Shown here piece after piece: positions 18,622 to 48,633 of a stretch of DNA of 64,000 nucleotides; within the stretch, counting starts at the first letter, position 1, and each line of letters starts with the position of its first letter. The DNA is from Solirubrobacterales bacterium (lineage in GTDB: Bacteria; Actinomycetota; Thermoleophilia; Solirubrobacterales; Solirubrobacteraceae). The stretch is taken from assembly GCA_027451345.1 (NCBI GenBank), contig DAIDJO010000095.1, positions 62,001 to 126,000 of the forward strand, read 5' to 3'. A program made the position numbers and the translations under genes. The notes beneath the pieces were generated by a model. That model worked only from the letters and a program-made list of their open reading frames with translations. It was not told the origin of the DNA and did no database searches.

Positions 18622-18632
18622 GCCCGGTCCGA

Positions 18633-21013: not shown

Positions 21014-21016
21014 GGT

Positions 21017-21901: not shown

Positions 21902-21954
21902 AGGTCTCTCTCCCAGTCTTGCGGTCAGGCGCCGAACAGGCGAAGGTCAGCGGT

Positions 21955-21960
21955 AATATA
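21955..21960 (-). promoter_or_regulatory. Internal -10-like element before the hydroxyproline genes
   Basis: TATATT on the minus strand, 54 nt before the DapA-like TTG start, in the only A+T-rich spot of the 66-bp gap. No good -35 hexamer was found at the expected distance, so an activator or a sigma-factor variation would be needed. Confidence 0.3.
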
Positions 21961-21967
21961 GCACCCA

Positions 21968-23635
21968 TCACACAGCACGATTGTCGGCCCGGTCGGCGGC
22001 CCGATTGTCGGCCCGGTCGGCGGCCCGGTCGTCAGTCCCGGCGACGGTCCCGGCGTCGGTCCCTGGAGCAGGGTTGGGCGCGCCATCGTCGGGGCGCCCT
22101 CGATTGGTCGCCGGCGGGGTGGGCGTGGCGAACGCCGCCAGGTGGCGCAACGGAACCGGACTGCCGAGCGGCCGCCGGGACAGCGCGATCAGGTCCTCCT
22201 GCCCGGGGTCCGGCCCCACGGCCAGCTCGGCGCTCCCACCACCGGCCGGCGCCGCCGCCGCGCGTCGGGAGGCGGCCAGGCGGGCCACCGCGGCGCCGCA
22301 GATCCGACCCTGGCACAGGCCCATCCCGGGGCGGGCGAGGAGTTTGACCGTACGGGCGTCACCGGACCCGAGATCGTCCAGCGCCCCCCGGACGCGCGCA
22401 TAGGGAACCTCCTCACACCGGCAGATGATCGTCTCAGCCTCCAGCCACTCCTCCCATCCGGGCTGGATCGAGAAGACGCCGTTCACCCCGGCGGCAAAGG
22501 CGAGCAGGCTCCGGCGCCGGGCCTCGAGCAGCCGCCGCCGTGCCCGAGGCGCCCGCCGGCCGCGGCGGTTGGCCGCACCGCGGGCGCCCCGCCGCAGATC
22601 CTCGATCACCGCGGCGCCACACAGCTCGCCCTCGATCAGCGCCAGGTCGGCGCCGCCGACGCCGGTCGTCTCCCCGGCGGCGTAGATGCCGGAGACGGAG
22701 GTGCGACCAGCCGGGTCGGTCCCGACGACGAGCGAACCGTCGGAGCCGACCGCGGTCGCGCAGCCCGCCGCGAGCGCCAGCTCGATCTGCGGCGTGAAAC
22801 CGTACCCCACGGTGAGCAGGTCGCACGCGACCTCGCGCTCGCTTCCCGGGACCACCCGCCAGGCCGCGTCGACGCGGGCGACGATGACGCTGCGCAGGCG
22901 CTCCCGGCCGTGGGCGGCGATCACCGCGTGCCCGGTGCTGACGGTCACGTGATGGCGTCGCAGACGCGTGCCGTACCCGACCGCCTCGGGCAGCTTGCCC
23001 ACGCCCGCGACCGTCGCGCCCGGTCGACCGAGCATGCGCCAGGGGGCGTTCGGCTCGACGATCTCCACCACGTCCACCCCGGCGGCGAGGAGCGTGTCGG
23101 CCACGGGGAGCAGGAACGGGCCCGTCCCCGCCACGACGGCTCGCCGACCCGGGGCGACCCCCGAGCCCTTCAGCAGGGACTGAGCGCCGCCCCCCGCCAT
23201 CACCCCGGGCAGGGTCCAGCCGGGGAACGGGAGCTGCCGATCGTGCGCGCCGGTCGCCACGATAACGGCGCGCGCCCGGGCGCTGTAGGGCAGCCGCACG
23301 CGCTCTCCGCCGATGGCGTGCACGACGCAGACGGAGCCGGCGCGCTCGAGCGACCAGACGGTCTGGCTGGCCCGGTGGATGATGCGTCCACCGCGAACGT
23401 GGGCGTTGATGCGGGCGCGAAGCTTGACGAACCTGGCCCAGCCGTGGTGGTGGGAGCCGGCACCGTCCTCCTCCGCCTCGTCGGCGAGGTGCCGCCAGTA
23501 CTGGCCGCCGATCCGCTCGGCCATGTCGAGCAGCAGCACGGAGAGGCCCGCGTCGGCGGCCGTGACCGACGCGGCGAGCCCGGCCGGACCGGCGCCGATC
23601 ACGGCCAGGTCGACCGGGTGCTCAGTCGGCGCCAT
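21968..23635 (-). CDS. D-hydroxyproline dehydrogenase alpha-type subunit (FAD/NAD + BFD-like)
   Basis: A 555-aa flavoprotein. Residues 1-40 hold a Rossmann motif (VIGAGPAGLAASVTAADAG) for FAD, a second nucleotide-binding region follows, and the C-terminal part (~398-445) has IICRCEEV...GLCQGRICG, the four-cysteine BFD-like [2Fe-2S] motif found in HcnB/opine-oxidase and D-hydroxyproline dehydrogenase alpha subunits. With the ferredoxin-like and DadA-like proteins encoded around it, it forms a heteromeric membrane-independent dehydrogenase oxidising cis-4-hydroxy-D-proline. The last ~35 residues are a low-complexity D/R/A/N tail encoded by 24-bp tandem repeats. It overlaps the ferredoxin-like gene by 14 nt. 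Confidence 0.9.
   Translation of the reverse strand: MAPTEHPVDLAVIGAGPAGLAASVTAADAGLSVLLLDMAERIGGQYWRHLADEAEEDGAGSHHHGWARFVKLRARINAHVRGGRIIHRASQTVWSLERAGSVCVVHAIGGERVRLPYSARARAVIVATGAHDRQLPFPGWTLPGVMAGGGAQSLLKGSGVAPGRRAVVAGTGPFLLPVADTLLAAGVDVVEIVEPNAPWRMLGRPGATVAGVGKLPEAVGYGTRLRRHHVTVSTGHAVIAAHGRERLRSVIVARVDAAWRVVPGSEREVACDLLTVGYGFTPQIELALAAGCATAVGSDGSLVVGTDPAGRTSVSGIYAAGETTGVGGADLALIEGELCGAAVIEDLRRGARGAANRRGRRAPRARRRLLEARRRSLLAFAAGVNGVFSIQPGWEEWLEAETIICRCEEVPYARVRGALDDLGSGDARTVKLLARPGMGLCQGRICGAAVARLAASRRAAAAPAGGGSAELAVGPDPGQEDLIALSRRPLGSPVPLRHLAAFATPTPPATNRGRPDDGAPNPAPGTDAGTVAGTDDRAADRADNRAADRADNRAV
21978..22025. repeat. 24-bp tandem repeat in gene 3' end
   Basis: Two perfect 24-bp copies (21978-22001 and 22002-22025) and a degenerate third start (22026 on). 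In frame they encode an AADRADNR octapeptide twice at the C-terminus of the dehydrogenase alpha subunit. The repeat lies just upstream of the candidate internal promoter at 21955. Confidence 0.9.
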
Positions 23636-23909
23636 CAGCCCCTCCCGGTCCGCCCTCGCTGCGGATGTCGTCGCCCGGTGCGGCCGTCACGAGGCAGGCT
23701 CGGACCGATCGCTGCCCGTTCAGTGTCACGAGACAGTCGAAGCACACGCCGATGCCACAGAAGACCCCGCGGGGCCGCTGATCGACCCTCGTGGTGCGCC
23801 ACGCGGTGCGGCCCGACGCGATCAGGGCGGCCGCGATGGTCTGACCCGAGCTGACCATCACCTCCTCACCGTCGAGCGTGACGGCGAAGCGCGCCGAGGG
23901 CTCAGACAC
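23622..23909 (-). CDS. (2Fe-2S) ferredoxin-like subunit of D-hydroxyproline dehydrogenase
   Basis: A 95-aa plant-type ferredoxin-domain protein. Cysteines 51, 56, 59 and 72 form C-x4-C-x2-C-x12-C (VFCGIGVCFDCL...RACL), a [2Fe-2S] site as in sarcosine oxidase alpha N-termini and HcnA. It passes electrons between the two flavoprotein subunits. The GTG start lies inside the end of the beta subunit gene (8-nt overlap), and its end overlaps the alpha subunit by 14 nt; such tight packing suggests fixed stoichiometry. Confidence 0.93.
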   Translation of the reverse strand: MSEPSARFAVTLDGEEVMVSSGQTIAAALIASGRTAWRTTRVDQRPRGVFCGIGVCFDCLVTLNGQRSVRACLVTAAPGDDIRSEGGPGGADGAD

Positions 23910-25083
23910 GGACGCTCATCTCCTCGAACCGGCCGGCCGCGAACGGATCGAGGGGGAGCTCCGTCGGACGGCCGGCGGCAGCCTGCGCCACGACCAGCCC
24001 GGTGGCGGCGGCCAGACCGATCCCCGCCCCCTCGTGACCGCAGGCGTGGATCAGGCCCGGGACGCGCGGATCGGGGCCGATCACCGGCAGGTGATCCGGG
24101 CAGTACGGCCTGAACCCGCAGTAGCTGCGCAGCGCCCGGGTCTCGGCCAGGAACGGAAAGATCGCGATCGCGCCGGCGGCGATGCGGCCGATCGCCTCCC
24201 ATGACACGCTCCGGTCGAACCCGACGCGCTCACGGGTCGCGCCGATCAGGACGGTGCCACCACGGGTGCCCTCGACGACCGTCGAGACCTCGAGTCCCTC
24301 CTCCGAGCTCGCGACGTTCGCGACGTACTCAGCCGTGTAGACCTTGTGGCGGATGGTCATCGGCGGCAGCGGCTCGGTGACGAGGATGAACCCACGCCGC
24401 GGGAGGATCGGCAGCTCCGTTCCCGCGAGCCCCGCCACGACCCCGCCCCAGGTGCCGGCCGCGTTGACCACGATCGGCGCAGTGAGCGGACCGGCGGAGG
24501 TCCTCACACCCGTCACCCGCCCATCGGAGCCCCGGGAGATCTCCGTCACCTCGCAGCCGGTGCGCAGCTCCGCCCCGCGCCGGCGCGCCGCGGCCAACAG
24601 CTGCGCGGCGGCCAGCATCGGCTGAACCTGCATGTCCTGGGGGTAGAGGACCCCACCGACCACCTCGGGAGAGAGGTGCGGCTCCAGTTCGCGCAGCTCC
24701 GCCCGGGTGACCGGGACCGTCTCGACGCCCCGGTCCCGCTGCGCATGGGCGAGCGTCGCCAGCGCATCGAGGGCCGGCGCCGAGGCCGCAACGACGAGGC
24801 CGCCCTTCAGCTCGAGCTCCATCGCCTCCCCGAGATCGGACCCGAGCTCGCGCCACAGCCGGTTCGAGAGCAGCGCCAGATCCAGTTCGGGTCCCGGCTC
24901 CTTGTCCGAGACGAGGATGTTCCCCTCCCCGGCCCCGGTGGTGCCGCCGGCCACCCAGCCGCGGTCCAGAACGGCGACGGACGCCCCCTCGGCGCTCAGA
25001 TAGTGGGCGCAGCAGGCTCCGACGACGCCTGCCCCGATCACGATCGCGTCAAATGCCGCAGCCACGCGCGAGTAGTGTTGCAC
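23902..25083 (-). CDS. D-hydroxyproline dehydrogenase beta-type subunit (DadA-like FAD oxidase)
   Basis: A 393-aa DAO/DadA-family flavoenzyme. The FAD motif IVIGAGVVGACCAHYL is near residue 15, and the C-terminal FAD-contacting region reads HACGHEGAGIGLAAATG. This subunit would carry the active site that oxidises the C-N bond of cis-4-hydroxy-D-proline to the pyrroline. The GTG at 25081-25083 starts MQHYSRV; GTG at 25065 is an alternative. Glycine/sarcosine-type substrates are possible for the family, but the flanking epimerase, deaminase and semialdehyde dehydrogenase favour D-hydroxyproline. Confidence 0.9.
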   Translation of the reverse strand: MQHYSRVAAAFDAIVIGAGVVGACCAHYLSAEGASVAVLDRGWVAGGTTGAGEGNILVSDKEPGPELDLALLSNRLWRELGSDLGEAMELELKGGLVVAASAPALDALATLAHAQRDRGVETVPVTRAELRELEPHLSPEVVGGVLYPQDMQVQPMLAAAQLLAAARRRGAELRTGCEVTEISRGSDGRVTGVRTSAGPLTAPIVVNAAGTWGGVVAGLAGTELPILPRRGFILVTEPLPPMTIRHKVYTAEYVANVASSEEGLEVSTVVEGTRGGTVLIGATRERVGFDRSVSWEAIGRIAAGAIAIFPFLAETRALRSYCGFRPYCPDHLPVIGPDPRVPGLIHACGHEGAGIGLAAATGLVVAQAAAGRPTELPLDPFAAGRFEEMSVRV

Positions 25084-25166: not shown

Positions 25167-26390
25167 TCAGCCGCCGAGCACCGACCCGATCCGCTCGACC
25201 GCCGCAACGAGCCGCTCGGCGTCCTGGGAGAAGTTGATGCGGAACGCGGCCGGCGCGCCGAGACCGAACTGGTAGCCCGGGTTGATCAGGACGCCCGCGC
25301 GCTTGAGCGCGACGGCCAGGGCGTTGCCGCGTGGCGCGGGATTCGCCCTCCCCCACGCGGTCCCCGTGGCGTCGGGGAACACGTAGGAGCTGCCGAGCGG
25401 GCTCGCGACGGTGAGACCCTCGATCGCGCGCAACCGGGCGAGCAGCTCATCGCGCAGCGCCTCGTGCGCGGCGGCGCGCTGCGCGATCCAGTCGGCGTCG
25501 GACTCCATCCACCGCCGGAGCGTCTGCTGGGAGTATCCGGTGGTCCGCAGCGAGGCCATCCCCAGCACGCGCTCCATCCCGTCCACCACCTCGGGCGGCC
25601 CGACCGCGACGCCGACCCGGTAGCCGCTCATCGACTCGGTCTTGGACGGCCCGATGAGGGTCACGGTGCGCTCCGCCATACCGGGCAGCGCGGCCAGGTG
25701 GCGGAAGTTCGCGCCGGTGAAGAGCTGGCGGCAGTACAGCTGGTCGACGATCGCCAGCCGGTCCCCCGCGGCGACGTACTCGGCGATGGCGTCGATCGCC
25801 TCGGCGGCGTACACACCGCCCGTCGGGTTGTTCGGGTGGGAGAAGAGCAGGAGGTTCGCCTCCGCCGCGGCGGCGAGGCCGGGCTCCGCGAGGGACAGGC
25901 GGCCGTCCGGCGCAACGGCGAGCGGCATCCGCACCGCCCGCGCGCCGAGATAGGCGACGATCCGCTCGCTCATGAAGTAATCAGGGTCGGGGATGGCGAC
26001 GACGTCACCGCGACCGACGAGCGCCGAGAGCGCGGCGAAGAGGCCGCCCTGGGTGCCGGGGGTGATGATCAGCTCGCCGAGCGGGTCGACGCCGCGGCCG
26101 AGCAGCGCGCCGAGGCGGGGGGCGAGCCGCCGCCGCAGCGACTCGCTGCCGCGGTACGGGGTGTAGGCCTCGGTGTTCTCCTGCACCGCGTCCCGCAGCG
26201 ACGCCTCCGCGTACGGCGGCGGGGTGAAAGCGCGCGTGTCACCGTGCGTGAGGTCGATCAGGTCCTCCGGGGCCGGCGCCCGTCCGAGCTCGACGTCGAG
26301 CTCGTGCACCGAGCCGCCGTAGTCCGCCGCATAGTGGTCAAGACCCGCCGCCTGCAGCGCCTCCGGGACCCGTCGGGTCACGATGCTCAT
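25167..26390 (-). CDS. PLP-dependent class I/II aminotransferase
   Basis: A 407-aa fold-type I aminotransferase. Landmarks are SHPNNPTGG (Asn188), IVDQLYC (Asp216, Tyr219), Schiff-base Lys250 (GPSKTESMSGYRVG) and Arg258, all in family order; a C-terminal Arg in FRINFSQD would bind the substrate carboxylate. It probably transaminates an amino acid released by the peptide-degrading genes upstream. Its ATG overlaps the LLM oxidoreductase stop. The specificity (aromatic, alanine or arginine type) cannot be told from sequence alone. Confidence 0.9.
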   Translation of the reverse strand: MSIVTRRVPEALQAAGLDHYAADYGGSVHELDVELGRAPAPEDLIDLTHGDTRAFTPPPYAEASLRDAVQENTEAYTPYRGSESLRRRLAPRLGALLGRGVDPLGELIITPGTQGGLFAALSALVGRGDVVAIPDPDYFMSERIVAYLGARAVRMPLAVAPDGRLSLAEPGLAAAAEANLLLFSHPNNPTGGVYAAEAIDAIAEYVAAGDRLAIVDQLYCRQLFTGANFRHLAALPGMAERTVTLIGPSKTESMSGYRVGVAVGPPEVVDGMERVLGMASLRTTGYSQQTLRRWMESDADWIAQRAAAHEALRDELLARLRAIEGLTVASPLGSSYVFPDATGTAWGRANPAPRGNALAVALKRAGVLINPGYQFGLGAPAAFRINFSQDAERLVAAVERIGSVLGG

Positions 26391-27229
26391 CGGTGCTCCA
26401 CCTCCCGGCGCGCGGCGGGCCCGGCCGCCGCGGTCGCCATCGCCTCGTCAAGATCGATGTTGTAGGGCCCGAGCTGGGTGAGAAACCAGGTGGCCCCCGC
26501 GGCACCCCACGGCGCCGGGTCATCCGCCGCGCCGCCGCAGACGACCAGGTCGAACGGCCGGTCCCCCGCGCCGTCCTCCCGCACCCAGTCCCGCAGCGTG
26601 CCCAGATCCTCGGGGCCGTTCAGTCCGATCGTGAACAACCCATCGTGGCCGGCCGCCCGCCGGACGGGGGCACGGTTGGGCCAGCGCGAGGCGAGCCAGA
26701 TCGGGATGCCGGAGTCACGCACCGGCGTCGGAAGGAAGCGGACCCCCTCGGCGCGGTAGTGGACGCCACGATGCTCCACCCGCTCGCCGGAGAGGAGTCC
26801 CGTGAGCACGCCGAGGCCCTCGGTGAGCATCGCGCCGCGGGTGCGCGCGTCGCCCTCCTCGCCGAAGGACGACAGCTCACCCTCCCGCCCGTCGTCGCCG
26901 ATCCCGAAGCCGAGGATCAGCCGCCCACCCGAGAGCTGGTCGAGGCTCACCGCCTGCTTGGCGACGATCTGGGGACGGCGGCGCGGCAGCGGCGTGACGA
27001 GTGCGCCGATCGCCACCTGGGTGGTGGCGCAGGCGATCGCGGCCAGACAGATCCACGGGTCGGCGATCTCCTGTACCGGGTCCGAGTAGAGGATGTGGTC
27101 CCACACGAACACGCCGTCCCACCCCGCGCGCTCGGCGGTGCGCGCGAGCTCGGCGACGGTGCGCGGGTCGGCGAGCGAGTCGAACGGCCCGAAGAACAGG
27201 CCGCGGCGCAGCGGCCCCGACGAGCTCAC
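26387..27229 (-). CDS. LLM-class flavin- or F420-dependent oxidoreductase
   Basis: A 280-aa luciferase-like monooxygenase-fold protein. FGPFDSLADPRTVAELARTAE and GWDGVFVWDHILY match the N-terminal barrel, and SGGRLILGFGIGDD is the typical LLM strand-loop. In actinobacteria such proteins use either FMNH2 or F420; no diagnostic residue decides which. It lies between a GntR regulator and an aminotransferase, co-translated with both (GTGA and ATGA overlaps), so it probably oxidises or reduces a compound produced by the TldD/E-DUF4438 block. Confidence 0.88.
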   Translation of the reverse strand: MSSSGPLRRGLFFGPFDSLADPRTVAELARTAERAGWDGVFVWDHILYSDPVQEIADPWICLAAIACATTQVAIGALVTPLPRRRPQIVAKQAVSLDQLSGGRLILGFGIGDDGREGELSSFGEEGDARTRGAMLTEGLGVLTGLLSGERVEHRGVHYRAEGVRFLPTPVRDSGIPIWLASRWPNRAPVRRAAGHDGLFTIGLNGPEDLGTLRDWVREDGAGDRPFDLVVCGGAADDPAPWGAAGATWFLTQLGPYNIDLDEAMATAAAGPAARREVEHR

Positions 27230-27957
27230 GGCTGGCCCCCGGGCTCAACCGGAGCCAGGTAGTGGTTACGGATCGCCTTGACGATCGTGGCGGCACGCCC
27301 GGTGGCGATCACATCAAGCAGTGCCTGATGACGGACGACGACCTCCGCGAGGTCGATCCGCTGGCGCTCGAGCGAGGAGCGCATCAGCGAGCCCATCTGG
27401 CCGTCCAGCCCGTGCCAGAGCTCGCGCACCCGGCGGCTGCCGCCCGCCCGCACGATCGCGTCATGGAAACGCGTGTCGGCGGCGACGATCGACTGCAGGT
27501 CCCCCTCCTCCGAGGCCTCGCGCATCGCGGAGATCACGTCCTTCAGTTCGGCGAGCAGCGCGTCGTCGACCCGCATCTCCGACGCCGCGCCCGACTCGAG
27601 CACGAAGCGCGCGAAGCAGATGTCGTGGATGTCATCGGCATCCATGCGCGAGACGAAGCAGCCGCGCCGCGGCGTGATCTCCACCAGGCCGTCGTTCTTC
27701 AGCTCCCGCAGGGCGGCACGGAGCGTCGTGCGGCTGACGCCGAACTCCTCGGAGAGCTGGGTCTCGAGCAGTCGCGAACCGGCCGGGATCTCGTTGTTGA
27801 CGATGCGCCGGCGCAGGGTCTGGCGCACCACGTCGGGCAGCGACGGATGGTGAAGCGGCGGCGCGGCCGCCAGCGGAGCGACCGTGAGCGGAGTGGCGGG
27901 CGAAGCAGCGGCGAGCCCGCCTGGTTCGTCCACCCCCAACGCGTCACGACTGATCAC
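27226..27957 (-). CDS. GntR-family (FCD-type) regulator embedded in the array
   Basis: A 243-aa regulator with winged HTH at ~45-105 (VVRQTLRRRIVNNEIPAG, FGVSRTTLRAALRELKNDGLV) and an FCD domain (CFARFVLESGAASEM, DTRFHDAIVRAGG, VVRHQALLDVI) with candidate metal-binding residues. The GTG start lies 14 nt inside the preceding DUF4438 gene. FCD proteins bind sites of the form T-x-GT-N(0-3)-AC-x-A; sites like that are at 39542 (promoter of this array) and 41811 (ridA/Gfo promoter), making this the likeliest autoregulator. Confidence 0.9.
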   Translation of the reverse strand: MISRDALGVDEPGGLAAASPATPLTVAPLAAAPPLHHPSLPDVVRQTLRRRIVNNEIPAGSRLLETQLSEEFGVSRTTLRAALRELKNDGLVEITPRRGCFVSRMDADDIHDICFARFVLESGAASEMRVDDALLAELKDVISAMREASEEGDLQSIVAADTRFHDAIVRAGGSRRVRELWHGLDGQMGSLMRSSLERQRIDLAEVVVRHQALLDVIATGRAATIVKAIRNHYLAPVEPGGQP

Positions 27958-28807
27958 TGGCCACCTCCATCAATATCGCCTCGGTGAGTCCCCGGTGCGC
28001 GTCGCCGTCGACCCGGAGGTCGAAGCTCGCCGCCGGCCCGGTGAGGATCGCGGTGACACCCGGGCCGTGGCCCGGCAGCGGACTGCCCCCGTGCGCCACG
28101 ACGCCAACGGTCAGCCACCCGCGCCGGTACCCGGCATTGAAGCGCGCATCGAGGTCGGAGATGGCGACGAGGTCACCGAGGCGCAGCTTGGTCTCGACCG
28201 GATCGGGCTCGCGCGCGACGGTGAGCTCGAGGCTCCACAGCGGGGCCGGGCGGCCGATCCCGTTGCCGACGAAGCGACTGGACCAGACGCCGCGGACCCC
28301 GACGCCGAGCCTCTCCCCCGCGAGCCGGACCCCGACCGCGTCGAGCAGGCCCGGCGCGGCGTTCAGGGCGGTGACGGCCTCGAGCGGCGAGCCGCACCCC
28401 TGGCCGCAGGCGCGGACGGCGAGCGCGTCCCCGGGCCGCAGGCGGCGCAGGTCGTCCTGCTCGAGCACGACGATCACGCGGACGCCCTCGCCGCGCTTGC
28501 CGAGGACGACGCCGCGGGCGCCCGCGGCCAGCCCGGTGCGGACCTCGACCGGGTTGCCGATGCACGCGTAGGCGGACAGCGCGTGGCCGTCGGCGTCGCC
28601 CGTGCCGACGATGCACGCCCCGGGGGCGACGTGGTCGGTGTCCGGCAGCGCGGCGCTGTCCCCGAGTCGCACGCCGAGGACGATCCCGCCGTCGCCGACC
28701 GGCACGTACGGGACGCCGTCGCGACTGACGCGGTAGGGCTCGAAGCCGACCTCCGCCTGCTCCACGACCCCCAGGAGGTTGACGCTGACGGGTGTGGGTG
28801 CGCTCAT
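27944..28807 (-). CDS. DUF4438 family protein, downstream paralogue
   Basis: A 287-aa protein of unknown function that I place in DUF4438. Motifs shared with its neighbour include GGIVLGVRLGDS...TDHVAPG, ACIGN, GVVLGKRG, ACGQG and the C-terminal GHGPGVTAILTGPAASFDL. No signal peptide or membrane helix, so cytoplasmic. The conserved Asp-His and HGPG stretches look like metal- or phosphate-binding loops, but no activity is known to me. Start and stop overlap its neighbours. It is divergent enough from the second copy (roughly a third identical by eye) for the two to be distinct subunits of a heteromer. Confidence 0.85.
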   Translation of the reverse strand: MSAPTPVSVNLLGVVEQAEVGFEPYRVSRDGVPYVPVGDGGIVLGVRLGDSAALPDTDHVAPGACIVGTGDADGHALSAYACIGNPVEVRTGLAAGARGVVLGKRGEGVRVIVVLEQDDLRRLRPGDALAVRACGQGCGSPLEAVTALNAAPGLLDAVGVRLAGERLGVGVRGVWSSRFVGNGIGRPAPLWSLELTVAREPDPVETKLRLGDLVAISDLDARFNAGYRRGWLTVGVVAHGGSPLPGHGPGVTAILTGPAASFDLRVDGDAHRGLTEAILMEVASDQS

Positions 28808-29682
28808 GCGTGATCCTCGAAGATGGTGGTGCCGAGACCGCCGATGTTGGCGTCCGGGTCGATGACGACGTGGAAGGCCCCCGCCGGGCCGCTCATGATC
28901 GACGAGGGGCCGGGGCCATGCCCGAACAGCTGGCAGCTGCCCGTGCTGATCACGCCGATCGTGGTGAAGCCGGGGCGGTACCCGCGGCCGTAGCGGTGAT
29001 CCTGGTCGACGAGCGCGACGACGTCCCCGATCCGCAGCGACTCGAGCCCGAGCGAGAGGTCCTCGCCGAGCCCGGCGTAGGCGCCCATCAGGTCGGTGTT
29101 GGCGTACTCCGAGATCATCCCGGCGCCCGCCCCGATCGCCTCCGGCGGGATCTCCGCCGCGACGTGGATCTCGAGGCGGCCGCTCGCGTCGGTGCCGCCG
29201 CCCAGCAGGTCGAGCAGCGCGGGCGAGCAGTTCTTGACCCGGATCTCCGGGTGCTCGGCGAGGGCGAGGCCCTGGCCGCAGGCGTACACGGTCACCTGAT
29301 CGCCGCTCGTGACCCGGGCGAGCTGGGCCTCGGGCATGTCGACGAGCACGTAGGCGTGCTGGCCGATCACGAAGCCCGACGAGCCGGCGCTGGGGCCGGT
29401 GGCGACGACCACCCGGTTGCCGATGCAGCTGAGGTACTGCAGCGCGTAGTTGGCGCCCTCCTCGCGATGGCGCACGCTGAGGCCCGGCTCGACGTGGTCT
29501 CCCGCGTGCCCGGTCGCCCGGTCACCGCAGTGCACGCCGAGCGTGACCCCGCCCATCCCGGGCAGGACGAACGGCCGCCCGTCCGGGTCGACGCGGAAGG
29601 CGTGGCGATCGGCGAGCGCCGGCCACACCTCGCCGGCCAGGACCTGCGTGACGAGCCGGTCGGCGTTGCTCGAAACCCTCAT
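28804..29682 (-). CDS. DUF4438 family protein, upstream paralogue
   Basis: A 292-aa DUF4438 protein, closer to the family norm than the other copy: LPGMGGVTLGVHCGDR, AGDHVEPGLSVRH, LSCIGNRVVVATG, GFVIGQHAYVLVDM, YACGQGLAL and FGHGPGPSSIMSGPAGAFHVVID are all present. No catalytic residues have been assigned to the family to my knowledge; the repeated glycine-rich loops and paired His/Asp positions suggest a beta-rich enzyme with a metal centre. The ATG (29680-29682) overlaps the TldE stop, so it is translated with the protease genes. Confidence 0.87.
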   Translation of the reverse strand: MRVSSNADRLVTQVLAGEVWPALADRHAFRVDPDGRPFVLPGMGGVTLGVHCGDRATGHAGDHVEPGLSVRHREEGANYALQYLSCIGNRVVVATGPSAGSSGFVIGQHAYVLVDMPEAQLARVTSGDQVTVYACGQGLALAEHPEIRVKNCSPALLDLLGGGTDASGRLEIHVAAEIPPEAIGAGAGMISEYANTDLMGAYAGLGEDLSLGLESLRIGDVVALVDQDHRYGRGYRPGFTTIGVISTGSCQLFGHGPGPSSIMSGPAGAFHVVIDPDANIGGLGTTIFEDHA

Positions 29683-31076
29683 GTGCCGGGCACCTCCTCC
29701 TGCGGCCGGGCGCCGAAGCGGAAGCCCCGGACGCGGATGGCGGGAGCGGTGGCGCACCCGTTCCAGACGTTCATGACCGGCTGGCTCACCTGGCGTCGTC
29801 CGATTCCGTCGGTGCGGCGCAGCGCGCCGATCACGCTCTCGGTGAACCGGCCGCCGCGCAGCGGCGTCGTCAGCCGGCCGTCCTCGATCAGGAAGCAGGC
29901 GTCGCGCGTGGTCCCGAGCACCGTGCCCGTCCGCGCGTCGACCAGGCGGTTGTACCAGAGGCGCTGCACGTAGACGCCGCGTTCGACGCCGGCGATCAGC
30001 TCCTCCTCGCTCTCGGTGCCGGCGGCCATCACGAGGTTGGCCGCCTCCGGCTCGGGGGACATCTCCCGCGCGATGTGGGCGTGCCCGGTCGAGCGTCCGC
30101 CCGTGGCGGCGGCGGTGGCCAGGTCGCTGATCGCGCCGCCGACCCGGCCGGCGGCGATCAGCTCGACCCGCTGCTTCGGGGTGCCCTCGAGATCGAAGGG
30201 AAACGGCAGGCCGACGCCGGCCAGCGCGTCGTCGGCGACGGTGACCGCCGGGGCGACGAGCTTCGCCCCGGGAGTGGTTAGCACCGGGCTCACCCCGGCG
30301 AGCACCGCGGGCGCGGTGAAGCCGAAGGACGGGATGAAGCCGATCAGCTCCCCCGTGGCCAGGCCACCGAAGACGACGTCCGTCGTCCCGTCGGGCAGCG
30401 GCACCGGGTCACCGGCCTCGACGATCTGCTCGAGCGCCGCCGCGGCGCGCTCACCCACGTCGAGCCGGTCGGCGTGGCGCGAGAGGTCGCCGAGATAGGA
30501 GGAGAGCGGGCCGCAGCGGAGCGTCAGGGCGAAGCCCGCCTCCGTCGCCGCGGCGTGCGAGCGCACGCCGGCGCTGTTGGCGACGGCGAGCTCCGTGACG
30601 GCGGCGATGAGGTTGCCGTTCACGTCGCCGCCCGCCGCGTGCGCGGCGGCCATCAGCTCGACGGCCTGGCGCGAGCGCGCGTCCTCGTCCCAGGCGACCG
30701 TCGACTCGCTCCACAGCTCGAGCCCGGTCGGCAGCTCCAGCCCCGGGGAGGGGGCCGGCGGGGACGGCGAGCCGATGAGACCGTCCCGCGAGCGGGCGAT
30801 CTCCGTCGCCCGGGCCACGGCACGGGGCAGCTGGCGCAGGTCGCTGACGGCGACGCGCGCGGCGCCGGTGCCGACGACCGCCCGCACCATCGCCTGCACC
30901 TCGATGATCGTCTGCGGCTGGTGGATCCGGTCGATGGCGAAGCGCGTGTGGTGGCCGGAGCGGCTGGCCAGGAACACGTCTAGGTGGTCGGCCCGCGACC
31001 CGGCGAGTGCGTCGTCCAGGACGCTCAGCGCGCGGTCGGCGCCGATCCAGGGCGCGAGGGTCTCGGTGACGCTCAT
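29679..31076 (-). CDS. tldE: TldE/PmbA-type protease subunit
   Basis: A 465-aa member of the TldD/PmbA family without HExxxH, as expected for the TldE half of the TldD-TldE heterodimer. Recognisable regions are the N-terminal domain (HHTRFAIDRIHQPQTI), the central FTAPAVLAGVSPVLTTPGAKL and the C-terminal RDACFLIEDGRL and PVMNVWNG segments. TldE shapes the proteolytic chamber in which TldD unfolds and cuts unstructured peptides. The ATG overlaps the TldD stop (ATGA). It differs from housekeeping TldE by being encoded with DUF4438 and a peptide importer. Confidence 0.88.
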   Translation of the reverse strand: MSVTETLAPWIGADRALSVLDDALAGSRADHLDVFLASRSGHHTRFAIDRIHQPQTIIEVQAMVRAVVGTGAARVAVSDLRQLPRAVARATEIARSRDGLIGSPSPPAPSPGLELPTGLELWSESTVAWDEDARSRQAVELMAAAHAAGGDVNGNLIAAVTELAVANSAGVRSHAAATEAGFALTLRCGPLSSYLGDLSRHADRLDVGERAAAALEQIVEAGDPVPLPDGTTDVVFGGLATGELIGFIPSFGFTAPAVLAGVSPVLTTPGAKLVAPAVTVADDALAGVGLPFPFDLEGTPKQRVELIAAGRVGGAISDLATAAATGGRSTGHAHIAREMSPEPEAANLVMAAGTESEEELIAGVERGVYVQRLWYNRLVDARTGTVLGTTRDACFLIEDGRLTTPLRGGRFTESVIGALRRTDGIGRRQVSQPVMNVWNGCATAPAIRVRGFRFGARPQEEVPGT

Positions 31077-32614
31077 GCGACGCCGATCCTCACGTCGCGC
31101 ACGAGCGTCGGGGCGGCGCCATGGGAGAGGAAGCCCCACTCCTTCGGCTCGCCCTTGCCGCACGGCATCCCGAAGATCCGGAACTCCTCCGGGCCGGCCA
31201 CAGCCTCCACCGAGCCCCACCACTGCGGGGTGATCCCACCGTAGGAGAAGTCGCGCACCAGCCGGGTGCGTCGCCCGCCGCGCACCTCCCAGGCGACCTC
31301 GGTGCCGAACTGGAAGCTGAGGCGCAGCGAGTCGATCGACCAGCTGCGGTTGTCGTCGATGTAGTACCCGTCGCCCATCCGCTCGAGCAGCTCCTCGGTG
31401 CTCCCCGAGCCCGGCTCGAGGTAGACGTGGGTGGCGAAGCAGAGCGGCAGGAAGCCCCAACCGTCGGAGCGGGCGGCGCCGGTCGAGCGCTGCCCGATGC
31501 GAGCGGCGCTGTCACGGCTCGACAGGAAGTTCGTGATCACGCCCTCGGTGATCAGCTGGGTGCGCTGCGCCGCGGTGCCCTCATCGTCGAAGGCGAAGCT
31601 GCCGCGGGTGCGGGGGACCGAGGGGTCGGCCGTGATGTTCACCGCGGGCGAGCCGTAGCGGAGCGAGCCGACGGCGTCGGGGCCGATGAACGAGCGCCCG
31701 GCGAAGTTCGCCTCGTCGTCGAGGATCCGGTCGAGCTCGAGCGGGTGACCGGTCGACTCGTGGATCTGGAGCGCCATCTGCGCGGGGCCGATGACGAGCG
31801 AGGAGGTGCCCGAGGAGATGGTCGGGGCGGTGAGCAGCTGGACCGCCTCCTCGGCGACCCGCTGGGCCTCGGCGGGCAGGTTCAGCTCCCGCACGTACTC
31901 CCAGCCGGCCGCGGCCGTGTTGCCGTGAAACGAGTTGGGATAGCTGCGCCGCTGCACGATCCCGTCGCGAGCGGCGAGGCTGAGGACCATGCCGCCGGTC
32001 TCGATGAAGTGCTGTTCGTTGCGCGAGCCCTCGCTGTTGGCGAAGTACCGGTGCTGGCGCTTGGCGTTGACGCCGGCCTGGGCGCGGACGACGCCCGCCT
32101 CGCGCGCGGCGACCTCGAGGGTCTCGGCGACGAGCCGTTCGCGCTCGGAGGCGGAGACGGCGAACGGGTCGATCCGCACCTCGGTCTGATGGAAGCCGTG
32201 GCTCGGCTCGCATTCGGGCAGCTCGATCCGGCGCCGGGAGCCGGCCGCGGCGCGGGCGTTGGCGACGGCGAGCCGGGCGGCGCGAGCGCCGTCGTCGGCC
32301 CCGGCGAGCGGCACGGAGGCGAAGCCCCACACCCCGTCGACGAGGACTCGCACGCCGACGCCGGCGTTGCCCTCGAGCCGCTCGTCGACCGGCTGCGAGC
32401 TGACCGCGTAGAGACGGAGCTCCTCGGTCTCGGAGAGCCGCACGTCGGCGAAGCTCGCGCCGAGGGCGGCGGCCTCCCCGAGCGCGGCGTCGAGCTCGGC
32501 CCCGACCGCGGCGAGGCCGCCCCTGAGCTCACCCCAGCGATGGGGGGAGCTCAGAGCCTGCCCGGCGGCGTGCGGCGCCGCCGGGCTCCCGGTGTGCTGG
32601 GCGGCCTCAGACAC
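31073..32614 (-). CDS. tldD: TldD-type zinc metalloprotease
   Basis: A 513-aa TldD homologue. The active site QIHESTGHPLELDR gives His285, Glu286 and His290 (HExxxH), and the C-terminal GMPCGKGEPKEWG supplies the third zinc-ligand cysteine. With TldE it forms a heterodimeric protease known for processing microcin B17 and CcdA and for degrading short unstructured peptides. The GTG at 32612-32614 was chosen: it overlaps the Gfo/Idh stop by 8 nt and fits the family N-terminus after a short tail. All active-site residues are intact, so a working enzyme is expected. Confidence 0.93.
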   Translation of the reverse strand: MSEAAQHTGSPAAPHAAGQALSSPHRWGELRGGLAAVGAELDAALGEAAALGASFADVRLSETEELRLYAVSSQPVDERLEGNAGVGVRVLVDGVWGFASVPLAGADDGARAARLAVANARAAAGSRRRIELPECEPSHGFHQTEVRIDPFAVSASERERLVAETLEVAAREAGVVRAQAGVNAKRQHRYFANSEGSRNEQHFIETGGMVLSLAARDGIVQRRSYPNSFHGNTAAAGWEYVRELNLPAEAQRVAEEAVQLLTAPTISSGTSSLVIGPAQMALQIHESTGHPLELDRILDDEANFAGRSFIGPDAVGSLRYGSPAVNITADPSVPRTRGSFAFDDEGTAAQRTQLITEGVITNFLSSRDSAARIGQRSTGAARSDGWGFLPLCFATHVYLEPGSGSTEELLERMGDGYYIDDNRSWSIDSLRLSFQFGTEVAWEVRGGRRTRLVRDFSYGGITPQWWGSVEAVAGPEEFRIFGMPCGKGEPKEWGFLSHGAAPTLVRDVRIGVA

Positions 32615-33746
32615 CGGCGAGCTCCGGCACCTCGGAGAGCGCCACCCAGCGGCGCTCGCGCGCGGCGCGCTCAAAGGCGTTGATCGTGCGCTGGACGAGC
32701 GCCCCCTGGGCGAAGTCTCCCTGGTTGACCTCGCCGCCACCGAGGATCTCGTCGGTGAAGTCCTTGATCAGGTTCGAGTAGAACAGGGACGGCCACTCCT
32801 CGCGGTCGCTGCCGCCCGCCGGGTAGTAGCGCTCCGGGATCGAGCGCTCGACGAACTCGACGGAGTTCTTCGTCGCCGTGCGGATCGTCTGGCAGATCCC
32901 GGCCTCCTCGACGAGCCGGACGATGATCGCGCCCTCCGAGCCGTAGATGCGCGCCTCGATGCCGGGGTAGTTGCCGACGGTGACGTAGGAGGACTGGATC
33001 GAGGCGATCGTCGGCGCCTCGAACTCGCAGATCCACATGTCGCCGTCGTCGATGTTCATCCGCTGGCGCAGGCCGGTGGCGCGCACCATCCGCTCGGGCA
33101 CGAAGTTGCGCATCGTGCCGACGACCTCCGTCAGCGGGCTGTCGACCCACCAGTGCATGATGTCGATGATCGGGGCGCCGTAGCCCTCGATCGAGGAGAC
33201 GGCGATCTCGTTCTCGTCGGGCGCCGGCTGCTCGGCCTGACGCAGTGGCGTCGCCGGGTCGATCCACTGGCTGTTCTGCTCGTAGCCGTTGAAGACGTAC
33301 ACGTCGCCGACGAACCCCTCGTCGATCAGGTCCTTGGCGTACTGGATGGCGGGCGCGTAGCGGAACGTGAAGCCGAGCTTCGTCTTCAGCCCGTTGGCGG
33401 CGGCCAGGTCGGCGGCGCGCCGGGTCTCGCGCGCGTCGTGGTGCACCGGCTTCTCGCAGAGGACGTGCTTGCCGGCCTCCAGGGCGGCCATCGAGAGCTC
33501 GAAGTGCGCGTCGTTGCCGGTGGCGACGTCGAGCACGTCGACCGAGGCGTCCTCGAGGACCTCGCGAACGTCGTCGGTCGCGTGCGGGATCCCGAAGCGC
33601 TGTGCCATCTCCTCCGCGAGCTTGCGGTCGGTGTCGACGAGCGCGACGAGGTTCACCCGCGGGTCGCGCTGCCAGCCGGGGATGTGCGCCCGGTCGGCCC
33701 AGCGGCCGGCTCCGGCGACCGCGACGGTGAGCTGTTCCTGTGTCAT
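32607..33746 (-). CDS. Gfo/Idh/MocA-family NAD(P)-dependent oxidoreductase
   Basis: A 379-aa Gfo/Idh/MocA protein. The N-terminal nucleotide motif is AVAGAGRWADRAHIPG, the catalytic EKP is in VLCEKPVHHDAR, and a conserved His lies in IIDIMHWWVD. Members oxidise or reduce hydroxyl groups of sugars, inositols and sometimes amino compounds, or act on glycosides by oxidation-elimination. The ATG has a good ribosome-binding site (GAGAGGAGAG). It begins the TldDE-DUF4438 run and would modify the substrate before or after proteolysis; a glycan attached to a peptide is one idea, without direct support. Confidence 0.9.
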   Translation of the reverse strand: MTQEQLTVAVAGAGRWADRAHIPGWQRDPRVNLVALVDTDRKLAEEMAQRFGIPHATDDVREVLEDASVDVLDVATGNDAHFELSMAALEAGKHVLCEKPVHHDARETRRAADLAAANGLKTKLGFTFRYAPAIQYAKDLIDEGFVGDVYVFNGYEQNSQWIDPATPLRQAEQPAPDENEIAVSSIEGYGAPIIDIMHWWVDSPLTEVVGTMRNFVPERMVRATGLRQRMNIDDGDMWICEFEAPTIASIQSSYVTVGNYPGIEARIYGSEGAIIVRLVEEAGICQTIRTATKNSVEFVERSIPERYYPAGGSDREEWPSLFYSNLIKDFTDEILGGGEVNQGDFAQGALVQRTINAFERAARERRWVALSEVPELAGV

Positions 33747-33893: not shown

Positions 33894-34829
33894 TCAGCGC
33901 CGGGACAGGCGCACCCTGGGGTCGATCAACGTGTAGGTCACGTCGACCACGAAGTTCATGACGACCACGAACACCGCCGCGACGAGCACGGTGCCGGTGA
34001 TCATCGGGATGTCGAGCGTCCCGATCGCGCTGTAGGCGAGCAGCCCGACCCCCGGCAGGCCAAAGACCGACTCGATGATCAGCACCCCGCCGAGGAAGTA
34101 CCCGAGGTCCATGCCGAGCATCGTCACGACGGGGGTCAGGACGTGGCGCAGCGTGTGGCGGAAGATGATCCGGCGCTCCGGCATCCCCTTCAGCCGCGCG
34201 AACTCGATGAACGGCGAGCGCAGGACGCTGATCATCGTCGTGCGGACCATCCGCGCGTAGAAGGCGGCTCCGCCGATGCCGAGCGTGAAGCTCGGCAGCA
34301 CGAGGTACCAGACGAGCGGGTGCCCGGTCCCGTTCAGCGGGAAGAGCGACACCTTGTAGGCGAGGTAGTAGAGGAGCATCAGCCCGAGCCAGAAGGGCGG
34401 CATCGAGAGGCCGACGAGGGCCACGATGTTGAGCGCACGGTCGAGGAAGCCGCCGGCCCGGTACGCCGCGATGATCCCGATCGGCAGGCCGATGAGGATC
34501 TCCACGAGCACGCCGCCGATGGCCAGCTGGATCGTGAACGGCAGGGCGCCCATGATCTCGCTGGAGACGGTGCGGTCCTCGAGCGCGTAGGAGACCCCGA
34601 GGTTGCCGTGCAGCAGCCGCCACATGTACTGCAGGTACTGCGAGAGCACGGGTCGGTCGAGTCCGAGCTGGTGCGCGATCAGCTGCACCGCCTGCGGCGT
34701 CGCCTGCGGGCCGGCGACCAGGCGCGCCGGGTTGCCGGGCACAATGTTGGAGAAGATGAAGGCGAGGGTGACCACCCCGAGCACGACGAGCACCATCTGG
34801 AGCAGGCGCCGCAGGAACCACGCGATCAT
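33894..34829 (-). CDS. DppB-type peptide ABC permease
   Basis: A 311-aa permease starting MIAWFLRRLLQMVLVVLGVV, with the DppB loop NIVPGNPARLVAGPQA and the EAA loop FARLKGMPERRIIFRHTLRH. Length and topology (six helices) are standard. It pairs with the DppC-like permease, whose stop overlaps this ATG (ATGA). Compared with the first importer it lacks the long hydrophilic N-terminal tail. Confidence 0.93.
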   Translation of the reverse strand: MIAWFLRRLLQMVLVVLGVVTLAFIFSNIVPGNPARLVAGPQATPQAVQLIAHQLGLDRPVLSQYLQYMWRLLHGNLGVSYALEDRTVSSEIMGALPFTIQLAIGGVLVEILIGLPIGIIAAYRAGGFLDRALNIVALVGLSMPPFWLGLMLLYYLAYKVSLFPLNGTGHPLVWYLVLPSFTLGIGGAAFYARMVRTTMISVLRSPFIEFARLKGMPERRIIFRHTLRHVLTPVVTMLGMDLGYFLGGVLIIESVFGLPGVGLLAYSAIGTLDIPMITGTVLVAAVFVVVMNFVVDVTYTLIDPRVRLSRR

Positions 34830-35758
34830 CGCCGGGTCACCTCGTCGCTGGGGTCGAGCAGATCGGTCAGCCAGTCGCCGGCCAGGTTGAAGGAGAGGAC
34901 CGTCAGGATCAGGCAGATGCCGGGCGCGATCAGCAGCCACGGCGCGGTCTGGTAGTACTGCTGCCCGGAGTTGATCATCTGCCCCCACGAGGCCTGGGGC
35001 AGCGGCACGCCGATCCCCAGGTAGGAGAGCGACGCCTCGATCATGATCGAGGAGGCGATCCCGAGCGTCGTGTAGACGACGATCGCGGGCGCGAGGTGCG
35101 GCAGGATGTGGCGGCGCAGGATCGTCAGGTCCGGCACCCCGAGGGTCTTCGCCGCGGTGACGAACTCCCGTTCCTTCAGGGACAGGACGAGGCTGCGCAC
35201 GATCCGCGCGAGGTAGGTCCAGTACCCGAAGGCGATCACCATCACGACGTTGCGGGTGCTCGGGCCGGTGACGGCGATCAGCGCGATGCAGAAGAGCAGG
35301 AGCGGGAAGGACATCACCACGTCGGTGATGCGCATCAGGATCGATTCGATGATCCCGCCGGCGTAGCCGGCGATCGTCCCGACGAGCACCCCGATGAGCG
35401 AGGCGAGCCCGGTGGCGATGACGCCCACGAGCAGGGACACCCGGGCTCCGAAGATGAGCCGCGAGAGCACGTCCCGTCCGCTCTCGTCGGTGCCGAGCAG
35501 GAACTTGCCGCCCGGTGGCATCGGCGCGCCCTGGTTCGAGAGCCCGGAGGGGAACGTGTGCAGCGGGTCGTGCGGCGCGAGCAGCGGGGCGAAGATGGCG
35601 ACGATCGCGAGCACCAGAATCACGAACACCGACAGGGCGGCCACCTTGTTGCGGCGCAGGCTGCGCAGCGCCACCCGGACGAAGTGCGGGTCGGTCACGG
35701 CCGTGGGCTCGGCGGCGGCGGTCTCGAGCAGCGGGCTCGACATCGGCGCGGTGCTCAT
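34826..35758 (-). CDS. DppC-type peptide ABC permease
   Basis: A 310-aa permease. A cytoplasmic tail is followed by the first helix (VAALSVFVILVLAIVAIFAPLL), the signature KFLLGTDESGRDVLSRLIFG and the EAA loop TAAKTLGVPDLTILRRHILPH. ATG 35756-35758 overlaps the upstream ATPase stop; an ATG five codons later is also possible. Part of the second peptide importer. Confidence 0.92.
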   Translation of the reverse strand: MSTAPMSSPLLETAAAEPTAVTDPHFVRVALRSLRRNKVAALSVFVILVLAIVAIFAPLLAPHDPLHTFPSGLSNQGAPMPPGGKFLLGTDESGRDVLSRLIFGARVSLLVGVIATGLASLIGVLVGTIAGYAGGIIESILMRITDVVMSFPLLLFCIALIAVTGPSTRNVVMVIAFGYWTYLARIVRSLVLSLKEREFVTAAKTLGVPDLTILRRHILPHLAPAIVVYTTLGIASSIMIEASLSYLGIGVPLPQASWGQMINSGQQYYQTAPWLLIAPGICLILTVLSFNLAGDWLTDLLDPSDEVTRR

Positions 35759-36804
35759 GCCGTCCCCCCGGGCGCGTCGGCGGCGTGGTGGCAGGCGGCG
35801 AGCGATCCGCTCGCCTTCCGGCGCAGGGCCGGGGCGGTCGTGCGGCAGACGTCGGTGGCGCGGGGGCAGCGGGGGTGGAACGCGCACCCGCTCGGTGGCG
35901 AGGCGGGGTCCGGCGGCTCCCCGGCGAGCATCGGGCGGCTGCCGACCCGCGCGGTGCGCACCTCGGGCACCGCGGCGATCAGCGCCTGCGTGTACGGGTG
36001 CTGCGGCTCGGCGAAGACGGTGGTCGCGGTCCCGTGCTCGACGATCCGGCCGAGGTACATGATCGCCACCCGGTCGGCGAGGAAGCGCAGCGTCGAGAGG
36101 TCGTGGGAGATGAACAGGTAGCTGATGCCGGAGTCCTGCTGGATGTCCTTGAGCAGGTTGAGGATCTGGGCCCGGATCGAGACGTCGAGTGCGGCGACCG
36201 CCTCGTCGCAGACGATCACCTCGGGTTGAACGGCGAGGGCGCGGGCGATCGAGACCCGCTGGCGCTGTCCGCCGGAGAGCTGCCCGGGGTAGCGGGTGAG
36301 GAGCGTCTCGGGCAGGCGGACCCGCTCGAGCAGCTCGGCCGCCTGGCGGCGGTGCTCGGCGCGCGCGACCCCGCGCACGGAGAGGCCCTCGCCGATCGTC
36401 CGCAGCACGTTCATCCGCGGGTCCAGCGAGTCATACGGGTCCTGGTAGACCATCTGCATCCGGCGCCGGTAGGCGCGCAGGGCCGAGCCGCGCAGCCCGA
36501 CGGCCTCCCGGCCACCGACCCGCATCGATCCCGCCGTGGGCCGGTGGATCTGCACGAGCGCGCGGGCGATCGTGCTCTTGCCCGAGCCCGACTCCCCGGC
36601 GATCCCGAGCGTCTCGCCCCGCCCGACGGTGAACGAGACACCGTCCACGGCACGGACGGTGTGGACGCTCCCCAGCCCGCGCCGCACGCGGAAGTGCACG
36701 GCCAGATCGGTCACCTCGACGGCGTGGACGCCGGCGGGTGCGCCCGCTGGCGCCCCGCCGGGCGGGGTCGTCGGCGCCTGCTGCGGCGTCGGCACCTGGC
36801 TCAT
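35755..36804 (-). CDS. DppF-type peptide ABC transporter ATPase
   Basis: A 349-aa ABC ATPase: GESGSGKST, Q-loop YQDPYDSLDPR, LSGGQRQRVSIA, CDEAVAALDV (Ala replaces the usual Pro after DE) and H-loop FISHDL. The C-terminal oligopeptide-transporter domain (GCAFHPRCPRATDVC) is present. A Pro/Ala/Gly-rich stretch of ~25 residues precedes the domain. The partner ATPase gene is directly upstream with an ATGA overlap. Confidence 0.92.
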   Translation of the reverse strand: MSQVPTPQQAPTTPPGGAPAGAPAGVHAVEVTDLAVHFRVRRGLGSVHTVRAVDGVSFTVGRGETLGIAGESGSGKSTIARALVQIHRPTAGSMRVGGREAVGLRGSALRAYRRRMQMVYQDPYDSLDPRMNVLRTIGEGLSVRGVARAEHRRQAAELLERVRLPETLLTRYPGQLSGGQRQRVSIARALAVQPEVIVCDEAVAALDVSIRAQILNLLKDIQQDSGISYLFISHDLSTLRFLADRVAIMYLGRIVEHGTATTVFAEPQHPYTQALIAAVPEVRTARVGSRPMLAGEPPDPASPPSGCAFHPRCPRATDVCRTTAPALRRKASGSLAACHHAADAPGGTA

Positions 36805-37856
36805 GGCAGCGCCTCCGCCGTGGACGCGAGCTCCGGGATCTCCCAGGTGGGGTCGCCCGCCGCGTGGCACGCGGCCTCGTGACCGTCGCGCGCCTGGGCT
36901 CGGAGCTCGGGCTCGACCTCGCGGCAGACGTCGCGGGCGATCGGGCAGCGGGGGGCGAACGCGCAGCCGGGGATGCGGGCGCCCCCGAGCGGCGGCGAAC
37001 CAGGGATCGACGGCAGCCGCTCGGGGAGCTCCCCCTGGATCGGCGGCACCGAGGCCAGCAGCGCGCGGGTGTAGGGGTGGGCGGGGGCGGAGACGAGCTG
37101 CTCGGTCGGCCCCGCCTCGACGATGCGCCCGGCGTACATGACGATCACGCGCTCGCAGAAGCCGGAGACGACGCCGAGGTCGTGGCTGATGAGCAGCACG
37201 GCGGTGCCGTGCTCGGCGGTCGTGCGCTCGAGCAGGCTGAGCACCTGGGCCTGGATCGTCACGTCCAGGGCGGTGGTCGGCTCGTCGGCGATGAGCAGGC
37301 GCGGGTCGCAGCTGATGGCGATGGCGAGCGCGACGCGCTGGCGCATGCCGCCCGAGAGGACGGCGGGAAACTGGTTGAGGGTGCGCGCGGGGTCGGGGAT
37401 GCCGACCGCCGTGAGGAGCTCGGTGGCGCGCGCCCGCGCGGCGGCGCGCCCCGCGCCTCGGTGGAAGCGGAGCATCTCCGTCATCTGCGGGCCGATCCGC
37501 ACGAGCGGGTTGAGGCTCGAGAGCGGGTCCTGCGTGATCATCGCGACCGAGCGCCCGCGCCACTTCGTCGGGTCCCGCGTCGCGCCGACGCCGAGCTCGA
37601 CGCCGTCGAGCAGCACGCGGCCGCTGACCTCGCCCGGCCGGGGGACCAGGCGCATGATCGCGCGCGCGGTCAGCGACTTGCCGGAGCCCGACTCGCCGAC
37701 GAGGCCGACGCGCTCGCCGCGGCCGATGGCCAGCGACACGTCCCGGACGACGCGGCCGTCACCGCCCGTCGTCGGGAACGTGACGCTCAGCCGGTCGACC
37801 GCGATGACGGGCCCGCCCTCCAGCGGGCCCGTCGACTGCAGCGGTGCGTCGGGCAC
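36801..37856 (-). CDS. DppD-type peptide ABC transporter ATPase
   Basis: A 351-aa ABC ATPase with GESGSGKSL, TQDPLSSLNPL, LSGGMRQRVALA, DEPTTALDV, LLISHDL and the cysteine-bearing C-terminal extension (GCAFAPRCPIARDVC). The GTG start at 37854-37856 directly abuts the binding-protein stop. It heterodimerises with the DppF-like protein to drive the second peptide importer. Confidence 0.92.
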   Translation of the reverse strand: MPDAPLQSTGPLEGGPVIAVDRLSVTFPTTGGDGRVVRDVSLAIGRGERVGLVGESGSGKSLTARAIMRLVPRPGEVSGRVLLDGVELGVGATRDPTKWRGRSVAMITQDPLSSLNPLVRIGPQMTEMLRFHRGAGRAAARARATELLTAVGIPDPARTLNQFPAVLSGGMRQRVALAIAISCDPRLLIADEPTTALDVTIQAQVLSLLERTTAEHGTAVLLISHDLGVVSGFCERVIVMYAGRIVEAGPTEQLVSAPAHPYTRALLASVPPIQGELPERLPSIPGSPPLGGARIPGCAFAPRCPIARDVCREVEPELRAQARDGHEAACHAAGDPTWEIPELASTAEALP

Positions 37857-43715: not shown

Positions 43716-43819
43716 CGGCCACCCTCCGGGAGCCGGGCGAGATCCGCCGCCCCGGCGGCGTCATCGTCGGCGGCGGCTGCCGCCTGCGTCATCCTCTGCA
43801 CGAACCGCCGAGTCCCGCG

Positions 43820-46421: not shown

Positions 46422-46424
46422 CAC

Positions 46425-47333: not shown

Positions 47334-47367
47334 CGCGTCACACCTTGGTCGTCAGACCGTACCCCGT

Positions 47368-48555: not shown

Positions 48556-48633
48556 TACTGCTCCTCTCCTGTTTGTGACTGTCCCTGAAGCGCCTATCCT
48601 GGCTCGTGTTGCACGATCAGGGGACGCACCTAC

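Follow-up and report, generated by a model that had tools for sequence, protein, structure and literature searches.

The tldD and tldE genes are widespread, and their physiological role has been called elusive (PMC5810440). In E. coli, TldD carries the metal ligands, an HExxxH motif and a C-terminal Cys, which are missing from TldE; the enzyme accepts unfolded peptides without sequence specificity and trims them processively from the N-terminus, and it takes part both in microcin B17 maturation and in unfolded-peptide degradation (PMC5810440). The trans-4-hydroxyproline pathway, in turn, employs the families 4HypE, DAAO, DHDPS and AldDH (PMC4113996). For DUF4438 no published function was found in the literature searched. 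Nor was one found for its homologue TM1086 (PDB 3dcl/3n99), for which the literature searched gave one protein-crystallisation paper and otherwise papers that, judged by title and abstract, treat different topics.

The window, that is, the whole stretch of 64,000 nucleotides from a Solirubrobacterales bacterium that was analysed here, carries between 25.2 and 42.2 kb what is probably a self-contained peptide-catabolism island, the substrates being putative small peptides.

Results

Organization of the cassette

An earlier note on this DNA had described seven overlapping genes that continue into an aminotransferase (AT). In the ORF list of the window all of these were found as open frames on the minus strand, in the order Gfo/Idh, TldD, TldE, DUF4438a, DUF4438b, GntR, LLM and AT, and the families and the overlaps of 4–14 bp hold as well (Gfo/Idh–TldD, about 8 bp; DUF4438b–GntR, 14 bp; TldD–TldE, TldE–DUF4438a, DUF4438a–DUF4438b, GntR–LLM and LLM–AT, 4 bp each). 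Pfam E-values were 1.7e-25 for GFO_IDH_MocA, 5.7e-37 and 5e-38 for PmbA_TldD_3rd, 1.2e-44 and 1.5e-27 for DUF4438 (with DUF4438_C in each copy), 3.8e-37 for Bac_luciferase and 5.9e-35 for Aminotran_1_2; GntR/FCD was also matched. The complete peptide-type ABC importer reported behind the cassette was recovered by Pfam, open frames and homology as five genes upstream of Gfo/Idh1: SBP_bac_5, OppD with oligo_HPY, OppF, OppC and OppB. This five-gene make-up with an oligo_HPY ATPase is shared with Opp/Dpp peptide importer operons; what sets the cassette importer apart from those is its syntenic link to TldD/E and DUF4438. Importers with SBP_bac_5 carry non-peptides too.

The range first assigned to the cassette, 26387–33746, proved too narrow, since the conserved module also takes in the importer, a D-2-hydroxyacid dehydrogenase (HADH) and RidA, joined in some genomes by a second Gfo/Idh. 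As judged from sequence comparison, the core module is composed of the importer, Gfo/Idh, TldD, TldE, DUF4438a/b, HADH, AT and RidA (window 25.2–42.2 kb); LLM and GntR are optional, and Gfo/Idh2 is present in some genomes. The features are listed below.

41849–42235, plus strand: RidA (Ribonuc_L-PSP), imine/enamine deaminase family; PF01042, 5.4e-21; divergent from the minus-strand operon; start codon uncertain
40694–41665, minus strand: Gfo/Idh2, second Gfo/Idh dehydrogenase, variable; PF01408, 4.6e-19; 55% orthologue in the Nostocoides cassette
39660–40697, minus strand: D-2-hydroxyacid dehydrogenase (HADH); PF02826, 8.4e-48
37857–39518, minus strand: SBP_bac_5 substrate-binding protein, DppA/GsiB-like; PF00496, 3.3e-87; GsiB/DppA scores below cut-off
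36801–37856, minus strand: OppD-type ATPase with oligo_HPY C-terminal region; PF00005, PF08352
35755–36804, minus strand: OppF-type ATPase; ORF and synteny
34826–35758, minus strand: OppC-type permease; ORF and synteny
33894–34829, minus strand: OppB-type permease; ORF and synteny
32607–33746, minus strand: Gfo/Idh/MocA dehydrogenase 1 (Gfo/Idh1), core; Pfam; 65–71% identity across cassettes
31073–32614, minus strand: TldD, catalytic subunit; HExxxH motif present as HESTGH, C-terminal Cys within GMPCGK; start codon uncertain
29679–31076, minus strand: TldE-like partner subunit; without HExxxH and without the Cys
28804–29682, minus strand: DUF4438a, first copy; full polar set N7, D63, H64, E66, C87, N90, H110, D198, D229, R234, H256
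27944–28807, minus strand: DUF4438b, second copy; clade with E66 to A, H110 to R and R234 replaced (mostly M)
27226–27957, minus strand: GntR/FCD regulator, variable; Pfam
26387–27229, minus strand: LLM-class (F420-type) oxidoreductase, variable; Pfam; orthologues only in loci L004 and L005
25167–26390, minus strand: class I/II PLP aminotransferase (AT), PRK06207-like; Pfam; orthologues near other cassettes

Conservation of the cassette

A genome contig collection was scanned with a DUF4438 alignment; 168 loci were confirmed, of which the best 80 were examined. Four of these 80 carried the cassette (L004–L007: an Actinomycetes MAG, Nostocoides sp. Soil756 and two Subtercola), and a family search around Subtercola added seven more, all in Microbacteriaceae. 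The grouping of DUF4438 with TldD/TldE, for which a neighbourhood search had been proposed and whose absence from every other genome would have counted against the earlier reading, is thus conserved in eleven other Actinomycetota. The order SBP-OppD-OppF-OppC-OppB-Gfo/Idh-TldD-TldE-DUF4438a-DUF4438b-HADH was identical in nine Microbacteriaceae loci (L006, L007 and the seven). In Nostocoides (L005/L131) the importer is rearranged yet lies directly upstream of Gfo/Idh–TldD, and the cassette order is kept. Its importer genes have diverged much further than its other cassette genes, with SBP identity to the window at 24% against 47–52% for the other cassettes; because this diverged importer occupies the same place beside Gfo/Idh–TldD, the linkage to a peptide-type importer is kept. 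L004 could be followed from TldD onward only, because its contig ends inside that gene.

Identity across cassettes was 64–74% for TldD against 43–58% for TldE, and 63–78% for DUF4438a against 47–59% for DUF4438b; Gfo/Idh1 was the most evenly conserved gene. Recurrence of the order importer-Gfo/Idh-TldD-TldE-DUF4438a-DUF4438b, at 63–78% identity for TldD and DUF4438a, indicates that the cassette is more than a chance grouping. In 10 of the 11 other genomes the fetched sequence contained an AT orthologue (40–57%) near the cassette, with RidA next to AT in nine of these, including Nostocoides and Microbacteriaceae, and HADH directly follows DUF4438b in Microbacteriaceae cassettes (53–56% identity). 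No orthologue of LLM was detected in Microbacteriaceae cassettes, and its restriction to L004 and L005 marks it as optional. The dedicated import and processing route suggested before is thus supported in part: the grouping of importer, TldD/E and DUF4438 is conserved, LLM and GntR lie outside the core, and HADH and RidA, which belong to it, had been overlooked. A check of 100 further relatives of the window genome found no DUF4438, indicating that the family is rare there; a search of viral contigs and plasmids for DUF4438 also found none.

Properties of the TldD/TldE pair

The HESTGH motif and C-terminal Cys of the window TldD align with the E. coli ligands, and both are missing in TldE; the motif is thus split between subunits in the same way as in E. 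coli TldD/TldE (PmbA). The PmbA_TldD C-terminal domain scored above the Pfam cut-off in both subunits, the first two domains in TldD only. We therefore predict the cassette TldD/E to be a heterodimeric metalloprotease. Unlike the E. coli pair, to whose TldD the identity is 26–27%, it is embedded in an importer and amino-acid catabolic operon. Exactly one PmbA_TldD-family pair was detected per genome in the five cassette genomes checked, so in these genomes the cassette pair does not come on top of a housekeeping pair. Against the window TldD, other cassettes scored about 650–685 bits and the best non-cassette protein 425 bits among 396 genomes of the phylum.

Divergence of the two DUF4438 copies

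Both window copies matched PF14505 and PF20999 above cut-off. The model of DUF4438a (pLDDT 88.6) matched the fold of TM1086 with Z 37.8 and rmsd 2.1 over 278 residues. Among its fold relatives TM1086 was the only full-length match, and none had a known function; matches to the F1-ATPase N-domain beta-barrel (Z about 9, about 70 residues) were dismissed as uninformative on function. TM1086 is thus a whole-length homologue with a common fold, and is single copy, in contrast to the two diverged tandem copies of the cassette.

Residues were compared for 156 DUF4438 copies, class I being TldD/E cassettes and class II pairs without TldD/E in other phyla. First copies of both classes and singletons keep, with few exceptions, the full polar set listed above for DUF4438a. 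In class I second copies, E66 is replaced by A, H110 by R and R234 mostly by M. In those of class II, H64 is replaced by C in 53/56 and T in 3/56, E66 by H, H110 by S, D198 by H and R234 by H, and H256 by Y in 51/56. A tree places class I first copies, class I second copies and class II second copies in one clade each; a single duplication ancestral to all second copies was neither established nor rejected (p-AU 0.39). The split parallels that of TldD/TldE, one subunit keeping the residues that its partner replaces. This pattern points to the first copy as the catalytic one, and the pairing, gene overlap and divergence of the two copies lead us to propose a DUF4438a/b heteromer. As a separate observation, C64/H66/H198/H234 are nearly invariant in class II second copies (e.g., L038), forming a possible metal site.

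DUF4438 outside the cassette

DUF4438 pairs without TldD/E were found in Proteobacteria, Gemmatimonadota, Acidobacteriota and Chloroflexota. This class II island (L008–L083) is widespread and holds the pair together with M32, M24, two ATs, Ldh_2, AllB-like, PuuE-like and Opp importer genes, a combination for which no description was found in the literature searched. Among the 44 class II loci that exceed 19 kb, an AT of the superfamily of the cassette AT was present in 43/44, Opp-importer genes in 41/44, an M32 or M24 peptidase in 38/44, and the Ldh_2 dehydrogenase and the AllB-like amidohydrolase in 32/44 each. Single-copy loci lacked every tracked family in 16/20; of the remaining four, L043 and L048 are class II loci ending at a contig edge, and L053 and L068 carry an Opp-type ATPase alone. 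These counts indicate that paired DUF4438, and not DUF4438 alone, tracks peptide import and peptidases. The DUF4438 reaction itself need not be peptide-specific, because most single-copy loci, mainly of Bacillota, are without peptide context.

Two neighbours of DUF4438 were also recorded. The orphan family F11 (L038:16368–17792, homologues in 29 loci) gave no Pfam or NCBIfam match, and its predicted fold resembles glycoside-hydrolase TIM barrels. In a Bacillota MAG, an adenosine-deaminase-family gene (L058:10972–11979) and an MFS gene adjoin a single-copy DUF4438, with family members in several related loci.

Flanking hydroxyproline operon and the island boundaries

Outside the module, a trans-4-hydroxyproline (Hyp) operon adjoins AT.

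17854–25083, minus strand: trans-4-hydroxyproline operon
23902–25083, minus strand: DAO
23622–23909, minus strand: Fer2
21968–23635, minus strand: FAD/BFD-like
21017–21901, minus strand: DHDPS
20012–21013, minus strand: HypE
18633–20015, minus strand: AldDH
17854–18636, minus strand: GntR

All four families of known trans-4-hydroxyproline operons (PMC4113996) are present; in contrast to those, this operon flanks an island as a separate unit, and it is not part of the cassette elsewhere. HypE belongs to the proline-racemase family, and its name is probable rather than certain because its score of 358 falls under the 4-hydroxyproline epimerase cut-off of 376.

In the congener G008, window segments 17.7–25.1 kb and 42.0–51.2 kb form one contiguous stretch of about 79–87% nucleotide identity, and neither the cassette TldD nor DUF4438 had a match there. 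This alignment shows that the contig belongs to the genus, and that the island parts the OCD and Liv importer genes (window 42.7–48.6 kb) from the Hyp enzymes; the Hyp operon of enzymes, OCD and Liv-type importer, contiguous in G008, is thereby split into 17854–25083 and 42675–48636. An MR_MLE enolase-superfamily gene and a thiolase lie upstream of the Liv importer (window 49809–52541). In the gap of G008, cassette genes are absent save a Gfo/Idh2 fragment (residues 103–185, E 1e-6) and broken RidA pieces. Because these decayed fragments lie at the junction, the idea that the island was inserted recently and that G008 shows the empty site was rejected; loss of the block as a unit in G008 is probable, this being the simplest reading of the alignment, although Gfo/Idh2 and RidA may be older neighbours. 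A search for direct repeats at the island ends yielded nothing pointing to insertion.

Discussion

The cassette is a real and conserved catabolic module, and its overall role is likely to be peptide use. The class II islands, in which DUF4438 pairs go with AT, Opp importer genes and M32 or M24 peptidases, offer an independent parallel in other phyla. As expected from the families, the Opp/Dpp-type importer would take up small peptides, which TldD/TldE would cut inside the cell; the unspecific, processive action of the E. coli enzyme on unfolded peptides (PMC5810440) would suit such a nutritional role. The DUF4438a/b pair might then act, at a guess, on the unit set free, or on that unit while it is still conjugated. 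An oxidation linked to NAD(P) would fall to Gfo/Idh. The PLP aminotransferase, together with RidA, would convert the amino acid to its 2-oxo acid, and the D-2-hydroxyacid dehydrogenase would interconvert 2-oxo and hydroxy acid.

The nature of the substrate admits several readings. A peptide carrying a modification is possible. If it were glycosylated or sugar-linked, the sugar part would be the target of the Gfo/Idh enzymes, two in the window, and the linkage that of DUF4438. The even conservation of Gfo/Idh1, whose best NCBIfam matches are sugar dehydrogenases, albeit well below cut-off, agrees with this, as do the Gfo/Idh, SDR epimerase and F11 genes of class II islands, F11 resembling PgaB and beta-galactosidases in predicted fold; however, the class I cassette is without a glycosidase, Gfo/Idh substrates are diverse and the fold resemblance of F11 is a general one (TM about 0.5), so that we regard a sugar-linked substrate as rather unlikely. 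Processing of amides or ureides by DUF4438, the islands serving ureide or cyclic-amide conjugates instead of plain peptides, is suggested by AllB-like and PuuE-like allantoinase-family and ureidoglycolate-lyase-family genes in class II islands, and by the adenosine-deaminase-family gene and MFS transporter beside one Bacillota single copy. We consider it unlikely, as these family matches fall under NCBIfam cut-offs and the class I cassette has TldD/E and no ureide-type genes.

The hint of hydroxyproline in the earlier note fits the adjacent operon, of which the genes agree with the known pathway (PMC4113996): importer and TldD/E would free hydroxyproline from collagen-type peptides, and HypE, D-Hyp dehydrogenase, DHDPS-type deaminase and aldehyde dehydrogenase would degrade it. 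Of the four other cassette genomes that were searched, two also encode HypE, on contigs other than that of the cassette. HypE was absent from the remaining two, the Nostocoides and Subtercola vilae assemblies, and is thus missing in two of five genomes; moreover, the Hyp operon lay beside no other fetched cassette, runs contiguously with the OCD and Liv genes in G008 without the island, and the island brings an AT and an HADH of its own. A hydroxyproline-peptide pathway was therefore demoted as the purpose of the module, and we hold it to be distinctly unlikely. Detoxification of or self-protection from peptide antibiotics, or maturation of an own RiPP, would recall the part of TldD/E in microcin B17 maturation and peptide degradation (PMC5810440), but is highly improbable for a cassette of importer and amino-acid catabolic enzymes in which neither a RiPP modifying enzyme nor an export pump was recognised.

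Within the preferred reading of peptide catabolism, DUF4438a/b could well represent a new two-subunit enzyme for catabolism of peptides or conjugated amino acids, with a peptidase partner that differs by phylum (TldD/E or M32/M24) and with TldD/E serving here as a nutritional peptidase, a proposal that we advance tentatively. The conserved operon joins tldD/tldE and DUF4438 with an importer and with genes of amino-acid catabolism, and because it occurs in the named isolates Subtercola vilae and Nostocoides sp. Soil756, their role is directly testable.
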